From: Levilactobacillus fujinensis
GTDB lineage: Bacteria; Bacillota; Bacilli; Lactobacillales; Lactobacillaceae
Reading direction: 5' to 3'
NCBI RefSeq assembly: GCF_003946335.1
Contig: NZ_RHNX01000005.1
Location: forward strand, 1-64,000
DNA length: 64,000 nt
Shown in pieces: positions 20,607-25,206 of this stretch. Both the position numbers and the translations under genes were made by a program. Every line of letters starts with the position of its first letter. The first letter of the stretch is position 1. A model generated the notes under the pieces. The model made no database searches. It was given only the letters and a program-made list of their open reading frames with translations, and was not told where the DNA came from.

Positions 20607-20719
20607 TATAAAAGTCGATGGTGAGCGTCGATTCTACCGGTATGATTAACGTATAAAAACTCATCTACCAATAACAGATGATCAGAATGGTCTGGTCACT
20701 TAAAGTGAGGTTATTTCGG

Positions 20720-22741
20720 ATGTTGAATGAAAAAGTAATGAAACAAGTAAGTTTTGATGACACGGACAATTTAGCAGTAACGGCGGTCCGGATGTTAAGC
20801 ATGGATATGATTTCGCGGGCCCGCTCAGGTCATCCAGGACTCCCATTAGGGGCTTCGCCAATGGCTTATGTTTTATTTTCCCGCCATTTACGGGTCGATC
20901 CTTCATTTCCACAATGGTTCAATCGGGATCGATTTGTCCTTTCTGCTGGCCACGGTTCGGCTATGCTGTACAGTCTCTTACACCTGAGCGGCTTTTCACT
21001 GAGTCGAAGCGACTTGATGAACTTCCGACAATTAGGTAGTAAGACCCCGGGGCATCCAGAGTATGGTGTGACACCTGGAGTGGACGCGACGACCGGTCCT
21101 TTAGGTCAAGGTATTGGAATGGCCGTGGGGATGGCCATGGCTGAAGCTCATTTAGCCGCGGATTACAATCAACCGAATCTAAACGTCGTTGATCACTATA
21201 CATACGCCTTATGTGGGGATGGTGATTTGATGGAAGGGGTTGCGGCTGAATCTGCAAGTTTAGCTGGCCAATTAAAATTAAATAAGTTAATCGTATTGTA
21301 CGATTCTAATGACATTTCACTTGACGGACCGTTGAGTAATGCTTGTCATGATGATGTAGCGGGGCGTTTCTTAAGCTATGGTTGGAACTATTCACGAGTG
21401 GCGGACGGAAATGACCTGGACGCTATCGATGATGCAATTACTGCAGCTAAGCAGAATCAAGACGGGCCAACTTTGATCGAGGTCAAGACACAGATTGGGG
21501 CGGGGAGTCCGAACGCCGGCACAAATAAGGTTCACGGTGCACCGTTGAATGCAGCCGATTTAGAGGCTACACGGAATACCTATGGTTGGAACAACGATCC
21601 CTTTACAGTACCAGCTGAGGTTCATGAACGATTTATGACGACGATCAAGGCACGGGGCTGGGCCAGCCACCAAGAGTGGTCAAACTTAATCACCCGTTAT
21701 GCAACGGTTGAGCCAGAACTGGCTAGCCAATTTGCCAAAGGATTGAGCCAAGAAGCACCGGCTGACTTGACAGATCAACTGCCAATCTATTACAAGAAGG
21801 ATAGTTTGGCTTCTCGGGCAAGTGGCAGCGAAGTTCTACAGAAGCTAAGTGCAGCCCTGCCAAACTTATGGGGGGGATCAGCCGATCTCTTTAGCTCAAA
21901 CAAGACGGCAATTGCCGAGGATGATCGGTTTAGTGCCGAAAATCCACAAGGTAGAAATTTATGGTTTGGTGTACGTGAGTTTGCCGAGGCCGCTGCCATG
22001 AACGGAATCGCTTTGCACGGGGGGAGTCGGGTTTATGGGTCGACATTCTTTGTCTTCTCTGACTACATGAAGCCAGCAATTCGGTTGGCAGCACTCCAAA
22101 AATTGCCAATCATCTACGTCTTCACGCATGATTCGTTGGCCGTCGGGGAGGATGGCCCGACTCATGAACCCGTAGAACAGTTAGCTGCTTTACGAGCAAT
22201 CCCAGGCTTAGCGGTCTTTCGGCCAGCGGATGGGAATGAAACCGTGGCGGCTTGGCAGACAGCACTCCAATCAGTCGACCATCCAACGGCCATCATCCTT
22301 TCACGTCAGGGCTTACCAACGCTACCACAAGCAGCTGCGCGTGTTCGTAGCGGTGTAAAGCGGGGTGGCTACGTGGTTCGCGATGCTCAAGGGGATGCGG
22401 AAGGTATTTTGATGGCATCGGGGTCAGAAGTTAAATTAGCATTAGGGGCACAAGAACAACTAGCAGAAATGGGTCACGACGTACGGGTCGTATCCGTACC
22501 AAGCTTTGAACAATTCAATATGCAGTCCACTGCTTACCGTGAACGTATCATGCCAATTAAGCTGCGCCGTAGAGTGGCAATTGAAATGGCGAGCGGCCTG
22601 GGATGGTGTCAATATGTTGGCCTCGATGGCGCGATGCTGACGCAGGAACAGTTCGGTGCTAGTGGTCCTGGTGAGCAGGTCATGGAAATGGCTGGATTCA
22701 CCGTTGACCGCGTCGTTCAAGCATACTTGGGGTTGAACTGA
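20720..22741 (+). CDS. tkt: Transketolase
   Basis: 673 aa from ATG 20720 (AAAGTGAGG at 20702-20710); in-frame ATGs at 20678 and 20738 are alternatives. It moves two-carbon units in the pentose phosphate pathway using thiamine diphosphate. The ThDP-binding motif [16 protein letters not shown] is near residues 160-175, [15 protein letters not shown] is near the N-terminus, and the pyrimidine-binding domain includes [16 protein letters not shown] near 480. Following ribokinase, it would feed ribose-5-phosphate into central metabolism, though each gene has its own promoter. Confidence 0.95.
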
Positions 22742-23065: not shown

Positions 23066-23185
23066 ATAGAACGAAGCCGCCGCGTCCGGCAGTTTTACAA
23101 GAAATATTGCAAACGTTTCCCGAAAATCTAGTAAGTTCGTAAAATTATTGGTATATTGGGGGTAAAGGAACTGGAGGCGGTTTTA

Positions 23186-24077
23186 ATGGAAATTCGGCGG
23201 ATCAAGGTGCCAACGGCGTTAGTGTGGTCAGCACCCTCGGCGGTGACTAAGACCGATCAGACTTATTTGAAAACTGGCGATTTGACGACGTGGCTGGCAG
23301 CGCTTAAACCAACGGATAAAGACCGGTTGGCTGACAATGACAGTATCGTCACGGAGGCATTGTTTAACGACCGTGTGGTATTGGATCGCGTTGAGGGTGA
23401 CTGGGCCCACGTGTTTGTGACGCGGCAAGGTAATCGGCAGGAACGACGAGGCTATCCTGGCTGGGTGCCTTTGGCGCAACTGACGACGGCTGATGAAGAA
23501 CTGGCCTACCCCACGACAACGGTTCGGCTGGTCCATGCCGAGACGACGTTGTTAAATGAGGACCGCCAACCCGTGTCGATCTTACCATTGGGAACACTGT
23601 TGACGACGACTGGTCAGGACAGTGAGTGGATTCAAGTCGTCACGCCTCTAGGCCAAGGGTGGATTGCGGCCGCTGCCGCCAAACTTGGTGTGACGGGGGC
23701 CGATGATGGCGACCGGCTATTAGCACTGGGCCAACAGTTCATCGGGACACCCTATCTGTGGGGGGGGGATCACACCGCAAGGATTTGATTGTTCCGGCTT
23801 TATCTATGCGTTACACCGGGCACTCGACTACTATATTCCCCGGGATGCGCAGGACCAATTTGCCAATGGATATCCGGTTGCACCGGAAAATTTGGCTGCT
23901 GGTGACCTTGTCTTCTTTGCTCGTGAACACGGGACTGGCGAGATTCATCATGTGGGTGTGTATGCGGGGAATGGTAAGATGCTACATGCACCTAAGCCAG
24001 GTGCGGCCGTTCAATTGGCACCGCTGACCGGAAAGCTAGCACCAGAATACGTGGGGGCTCGGCGGTTCTGGCAATAA
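23186..24077 (+). pseudogene. SH3-NlpC/P60 endopeptidase (YkfC-like), frameshifted at a G9 tract
   Basis: Start ATG 23186 with GGAGG at 23173-23177. The first 195 residues carry bacterial SH3-like domains (YPGWVPLAQL, GQGWIAAAA). The frame then breaks in a run of nine G (23760-23768) and stops at 23786-23788, giving about 200 aa. Removing one G restores WGG-ITPQGFDCSGF and reads on to 24077: 296 aa with catalytic Cys202, His in IHHVGVYAG and a third polar residue in MLHAPKPG, a complete NlpC/P60 domain. There is no signal peptide, so it would act in the cytoplasm on imported muropeptides like YkfC, a gamma-D-glutamyl endopeptidase. The break is a real lesion, a phase-variable state or a sequencing error. 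Confidence 0.88.
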
Positions 24078-24189: not shown

Positions 24190-25206
24190 ATGAAATTAAA
24201 ACAAATTTTGCTTGGGGTCGTAGCCGTAACTTTAGCGATTACTTTGGGCAGTCGCGCGGTATCCGCTGCTGCTGACACCACGGATACAGGGAGTACCAGT
24301 AGCTCAGCAACCAGTGGCAGTACCGTTCAAACTAAGGCACTCTCCAAGGCTTATGTGGTCTATGGGGCTGGTTTGGCCAGTGAAGACAAGGATACGGTTG
24401 CCTCAGCATTGGGCGTAAAATCGAATTATACGGCATTGACCGCAACCGGGACCGACTACGCAACGTATCTGAACTCGGCTGGAACCACTGATGCCAGTAT
24501 GATCAGTTCGGTGGCATTGGCACCGGCGGATCCTGGGACTGGGGTTAAGGTTAATATTGCCAAATATAATGGAAATAACAATATTACTGAAGTAACCGCC
24601 CAACAATACGCCATGGTCGCAACTATGGCGGGGGTCAAAGATGTCATTATTACGGTGACAGCTGACAAGACCGTTTCTGGAGAATCCGCCTTGACCGGTG
24701 TCTACAAGGCTTTAGCAGCAGATGGGTTAACGTTGAATTCAGAAAATACGCAAGCCGCTAACAGCGTCTTGGATGCGACTCAGCCAGCCATTGATTCTAA
24801 CAATGATGATAGTAAGTATCCCGGTAAATTAATGTCTGCTGTGGGTTCTGTTTCTTCAGATCTGGCTAAGCAACGACAGAACGGAAATGATTTAGCAACT
24901 AAGGCCGATATTGAAACGATGTTGCAAAAAGCTTTGGCTAAACAGGGCATTGATGGTAAGACGAGTTCAACTCAGATTACCAACATCTCAATTGCCCTCA
25001 GTAAGGTTCAACAAGCACCGGTCTCAACGAGTAAGACGTACGTGACGAATGTCACCAACGTTGCCAATAACCTTGCCAACAGTATTGGGGATAAAATGGC
25101 TAGCGTGAAAGATTTCGCCAACAGTGCGGATGCAAAAAAAGCTGAGAATTTCATTGTGCAATTCTGGAATAAAATCGTTAGTTTTTTTAAAGGATTACTA
25201 GGCTAA
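24190..25206 (+). CDS. Secreted DUF1002 family protein
   Basis: 338 aa. The N-terminal signal peptide (MKLKQ, hydrophobic stretch, cleavage near VSA-A at residue 27-28) indicates export. A Ser/Thr-rich segment follows, then the region from AYVVYGAGLASEDKDTVASA to about residue 280 matches my recollection of the DUF1002 family, whose function is unknown. It has no LPxTG anchor or membrane segment. An internal Gly/Asn-poor helical part and a C-terminal hydrophobic stretch (IVQFWNKIVSFFKGLLG) could contact the membrane. It lies between two NlpC/P60 genes, which suggests an envelope role. Confidence 0.8.
   Translation: MKLKQILLGVVAVTLAITLGSRAVSAAADTTDTGSTSSSATSGSTVQTKALSKAYVVYGAGLASEDKDTVASALGVKSNYTALTATGTDYATYLNSAGTTDASMISSVALAPADPGTGVKVNIAKYNGNNNITEVTAQQYAMVATMAGVKDVIITVTADKTVSGESALTGVYKALAADGLTLNSENTQAANSVLDATQPAIDSNNDDSKYPGKLMSAVGSVSSDLAKQRQNGNDLATKADIETMLQKALAKQGIDGKTSSTQITNISIALSKVQQAPVSTSKTYVTNVTNVANNLANSIGDKMASVKDFANSADAKKAENFIVQFWNKIVSFFKGLLG

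Follow-up and report, generated by a model that had tools for sequence, protein, structure and literature searches.

One extra base at a nine-G run breaks the frame of a predicted YkfC/LytC-type peptidase gene in Levilactobacillus fujinensis: most likely a recent mutation or a miscall rather than an evolved switch

Introduction

The 64,000-nt stretch of DNA analysed here (the window) is part of a 3.0-Mb draft genome in 103 contigs, and holds an SH3b-NlpC/P60 gene whose reading frame is lost at a run of guanines just before the codon of the catalytic Cys. Such a run raises the question of whether the enzyme is switched on and off by changes in tract length, whether this isolate carries a recent lesion, or whether the tract was miscalled, and a sequence-only reading of the window had left these three options side by side. 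In order to weigh them, we compared the gene with its counterparts in genome sets with one genome per species, including 34 Levilactobacillus genomes besides this one (the nearest named relatives are Levilactobacillus, including L. enshiensis, L. koreensis and L. brevis). A lesion or a miscall fits all of the findings presented below, whereas the switch goes unsupported. An ordinary mutation of recent date, or a miscall in sequencing, is thus the most likely cause of the frame break, ahead of an on/off device shaped by evolution.

Results

The interrupted reading frame

The frame that opens with the ATG at 23186 runs into the stop codon 23786-23788, shortly after a run of nine G that was read directly from the sequence (Table 1). 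In the other frame, positions 23763-24074 are open and match the NlpC/P60 family (PF00877, E 9.6e-22) in a profile search, and an alignment places D, C, H, H and H at the active-site columns of this out-of-frame stretch. The SH3 hits in the truncated ORF are weak, just under the Pfam cut-offs. The sequence-only reading had described nine G within the WGG codons just before the catalytic Cys, a frame stopping at 23788, and, for a tract of eight G, a full-length product of 296 aa with all catalytic residues; the run, the ORF check, the residues at the active-site columns and the intact 296-aa protein of a relative (L038, from L. enshiensis) all agree with this description, and every coordinate of it that was rechecked proved correct.

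Table 1 Features of the interrupted gene and its surroundings (positions in the window), and leader sites at three loci of Levilactobacillus relatives (positions in the named locus)
Feature	Position	Strand	Remarks
Transketolase-like ORF	20678-22741		upstream; named by eye
Shine-Dalgarno-like sequence	23173..23180	+	5' of ATG 23186; by eye
Truncated ORF, 200 aa	23186..23788	+	SH3b-like part to WGG, six off-frame codons, stop
Nine-G run, frameshift site	23760..23768	+	spans both Gly codons of WGG
Out-of-frame NlpC/P60 catalytic domain	23769..24077	+	Asp-Cys, His-His and His kept; normal stop
DUF1002 protein	24190-25206		directly 3' of the peptidase gene; PF06207, E 1.2e-44; N-terminal signal-like stretch, by eye
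Leader sites, L245	7805-7813, 8395-8405, 8986-8995
Leader sites, L246	7312-7320, 8038-8047
Leader sites, L247	6973-6981, 7606-7614

Runs of at least eight G or C are found four times in the whole 3.0-Mb genome, two of them being of length nine. Shorter tracts are not in excess in the window, where five overlapping seven-G matches compare with a shuffled mean of 6.83, and since GGG makes up 21% of the Gly codons in its long ORFs, two consecutive GGG codons are unremarkable. As to the surroundings of the gene, the transketolase-like ORF also adjoins it in two relatives (G007 and G013), and a search of the 1.5 kb flanking the gene in a third (G002) did not reveal it, so that the gene neighbourhood varies.

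The encoded protein and its known counterparts

The gene product is predicted to be an SH3b-SH3b-NlpC/P60 endopeptidase of the YkfC/LytC muropeptide-recycling type. The intact L. enshiensis protein matches the NLP/P60 family protein of PDB entry 3h41 over its full length (residues 6-294, E 5.5e-46); we take this entry to be the YkfC of Bacillus cereus, with its Asp and Cys presumably numbered 237 and 238. The two N-terminal SH3b domains were recognized through this alignment, the SH3 models themselves being weak and below the Pfam cut-offs, while PF00877 detects the C-terminal NlpC/P60 domain with its Cys-His-polar triad in the 3' frame as well as in the intact relative. The catalytic C and H columns are identical in all 34 relatives and in the window, and the pair of adjacent His and the His further on are likewise present in 34/34, the window having each residue in one or the other frame. 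Both the Tyr and the Asp that restrict the enzyme to free stem peptides occur in the window gene; among the relatives the Asp stands next to the Cys in 34/34 and the SH3b Tyr is found in 33/34 (one gap).

B. cereus YkfC has a Cys-His-His triad, two SH3b domains and the residues Glu83, Thr84 and Tyr118 (PMC9928106). Besides the full-length match, the likeness extends to the Tyr of GYPGW, Asp-Cys, His-His and His, which are conserved across Levilactobacillus. The differences are one S2-site residue, for which the alignment shows Val in place of the Glu of YkfC, and the broken state of the window copy. The other counterpart is LytC of Lactobacillus plantarum (Lp_2520, 297 aa), described as a YkfC-type member with SH3b domains, in a family where Tyr and Asp are the marks of recycling enzymes (PMC6473061). 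Compared by that description, LytC is alike in size, in its SH3b and NlpC/P60 layout and in belonging to the YkfC subfamily; LytC, however, is predicted to be extracellular (PMC6473061), whereas a simple hydropathy window gave no clear signal peptide on the protein studied here, which is therefore not an obvious surface protein.

The gene across Levilactobacillus

A DNA search located the peptidase gene in 35/35 Levilactobacillus genomes, this one included, and its frame is open in full length in 32 of the 34 relatives (at least 298 aa from stop to stop), which rules out that two separate SH3 and NlpC genes had been read as one. Both exceptions are interruptions in sister species. In G005 (locus L250), the gene is interrupted near codon 20 by an insert that measures about 1.7 kb and bears transposase ORFs (rve, HTH_Tnp_1). 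In G013 (L251/L252), the gene is spread over two contigs with foreign sequence at their gene-side ends, and a 32-base piece of one foreign end has nine copies in that genome and none in the four other genomes searched. The ends of the G013 element look like those of a group II intron; an Rfam search of the split relatives and L008 returned no match. If the element is a self-splicing intron, the G013 copy may be working.

Ahead of the catalytic Cys, G runs reach a maximum of four in 29 of the relatives and of seven in the other five, and a run of at least eight G is seen at the site in 0/34, which makes the tract peculiar to this genome. A conserved contingency locus is thereby ruled out. On a wider scale, the Tyr-Leu/Phe-Trp-Gly-Gly motif is spelled with eight G in two of 397 family genomes, one being the window and the other lying in AT-rich sequence.

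Age of the damage and the extra base

The dN/dS of the 3', out-of-frame part is 0.029 against G002 and 0.025 against G007 (0.014 for the G002-G007 pair), and that of the upstream part is 0.058, 0.050 and 0.049 for the same three comparisons. The out-of-frame part is under strong purifying selection, and the damage is therefore either very recent or not real. An old pseudogene is ruled out, with a 3' dN/dS of about 0.03 and no stop before the normal end. Private amino-acid changes are more numerous in this genome than in the two relatives both upstream (8 vs. 3 and 4) and downstream (2 vs. 0 and 0), which makes it conceivable that selection on the gene may be slightly relaxed here.

The sequence-only reading had counted the extra base as a ninth G. 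One extra base relative to the relatives is indeed present, but the sequence itself cannot tell which, and it may be the A at 23769. The residue after WGG is Val in the three nearest relatives, with a codon that begins with G, and Ile or Leu in the other 31, so the extra base could be an A after the run or a G inside it: one inserted A would suffice if the ancestor had Val, and one inserted G would suffice if it had Ile. In a locus tree drawn for the ancestral residue, this genome tends to fall in a nested place, with low support values (49 and 69). Of the two kinds of change, slippage within a run is generally the commoner.

Quality of the assembly

The strongest competitor of a genuine mutation is a miscall, in which the cell would have an intact gene and the assembly a wrong tract; we regard it as possible, though clearly less probable than the mutation. 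Only one other G/C run in the genome is as long as the tract, a nine-G run is the likeliest kind of place for a read or assembly error, and an artefact would give the same purifying selection without decay in the 3' part. The literature points the same way, in that one class of singleton frameshifts is expected to be sequencing errors and not genuine indels (PMC3711429), and G-tract lengths in databases can differ from those obtained by deep sequencing (PMC9187656).

To set against this, we compared ORFs of at least 80 aa in a sampled 459 kb of the assembly with the nearest relative, G002. Among 273 matched ORFs (250 kb), 16 rows from 15 queries were flagged: one was the peptidase gene, ten were inspected and five (up to 96 aa) were set aside by size. 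Inspection revealed one real break, and the other nine were mostly ORF overlaps or pre-start sequence, one at the edge of L220 being ambiguous. Clear broken genes thus numbered two, the peptidase gene and an Antibiotic_NAT-type gene (PF02522, E 1.6e-57; L157:9253-10042, G000:C10), which has a short deletion close to the start and not at a homopolymer. The comparison with G007 flagged three of 39 matched ORFs, namely the peptidase gene and two of 81-93 aa that were set aside by size. In the reverse direction the raw flags numbered 13/274 (G002) and 8/42 (G007); among them, the split of a 243-aa frame is possibly a genuine break in G002.

The sample therefore shows no general homopolymer problem, and the notion of an assembly full of homopolymer errors is unsupported in these 459 kb. 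An 8-G run at C8:20649 sits within an open 766-aa frame, and 127 homopolymers of at least six, of which 24 are of at least seven, were counted across 218 ORFs matched in a single frame, although this count alone is a weak control because the ORFs were selected for a one-frame match. Even with a sample that is clean at runs of six to eight, there may be an error at nine.

Possible tract-length switching or recoding

Phase variation, in which slipped-strand mispairing at the tract would reversibly switch the enzyme on and off, has in its favour that the G tract is long and coding and that the domain in the other frame is intact, and a precedent in Bifidobacterium breve, where pilus genes are split by length-varying G tracts of 11-12 (PMC9187656). 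What is shared with those loci is the interruption of an ORF by a G tract in coding sequence; the tract here is absent from the relatives, is known in one length and does not lie in an evident surface gene. Poly-G phase-variable loci are recognized by long tracts shared by, or varying among, close relatives, and none of the 34 offers one; the rarity of the 8-G spelling in the family and the lack of a clear signal peptide further speak against a switch. A published survey links clustered frameshifts to phase variation and programmed shifts, and singletons, such as the present one among the genomes compared, to indels and sequencing errors (PMC3711429). A literature search combining Levilactobacillus and phase variation, judged by title and abstract, found nothing relevant. 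We consequently hold phase variation to be improbable, and marginally more so the specific version of a slippage switch that has newly evolved at the tract and controls a muropeptide-recycling endopeptidase within this species, giving mixed populations.

Recoding, by which RNA polymerase or ribosome slippage on the run would restore some full-length enzyme from a leaky gene, is very unlikely: a tRNA on GGG could by reasoning re-pair one base further inside the run and the selection on the 3' part is kept, but the tract is missing from all 34 relatives, hence there is no conserved recoding signal, and the zero-frame stop lies six codons downstream of the slip site and not at it. Internal initiation offers no way round, as no ATG, GTG or TTG codon occurs in the 3' frame from the stop that precedes it to the catalytic Cys.

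G-tract leaders in other loci

A different arrangement of long G runs was observed at three loci of Levilactobacillus relatives (L245-L247, Table 1), where a Shine-Dalgarno sequence, an ATG and about ten codons lead to a run of 9-11 G. The regions look by eye like prophage tail regions, in which genes of about 150-210 aa follow one another, and the leaders sit in some, not all, of the gaps between them; genuine G-tract switching is more plausible for the short leader ORFs than for the peptidase gene. Neither a PHROG search with four of these 150-210-aa proteins nor a phage tblastn with two of them gave a match. A narrower version of the leader pattern was absent from all 61 family genomes searched and present in two viral contigs. 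The pattern of AGGAGG, ATG and then at least nine G after 20-36 bases occurs in at least 120 stretches in viral contigs, against 27 with C, and 80 of these stretches make up the loci L267-L346; a script showed the leader to be open up to the tract at 82 of the 86 sites in L265-L346. Some of the viral-contig matches are simply Gly-rich proteins.

Discussion

Taken together, we favour, with moderate confidence, a recent single-base frameshift in a probably dispensable YkfC/LytC-type peptidase gene of this isolate. Silent changes would have turned both Gly codons of WGG into GGG and so built a long G run, after which replication slippage at the run, or an A gained beside it, would have shifted the frame; translation would then end past the SH3b part, and the catalytic domain would not be made. 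If the extra base is truly in the cell, its loss-of-function effect is presumably tolerated. That the gene is probably dispensable is suggested indirectly, by its interruption in G005 and G013, and by L. plantarum mutants in lytC, lytD or both, which are reported to have no visible defect (PMC6473061).

Were the tract to act as a switch after all, mixed populations would differ in the cell-wall peptides that are kept or released, and phase variation would become linked to peptidoglycan recycling in food lactobacilli. On the preferred reading of a recent frameshift, the locus carries a more general caution: because the conserved WGG of NlpC/P60 proteins is spelled TGG-GGN-GGN, a slip-prone run can arise by silent drift immediately ahead of the catalytic Cys, and a lone frameshift at WGG should not be taken as a switch before the relatives have been compared.
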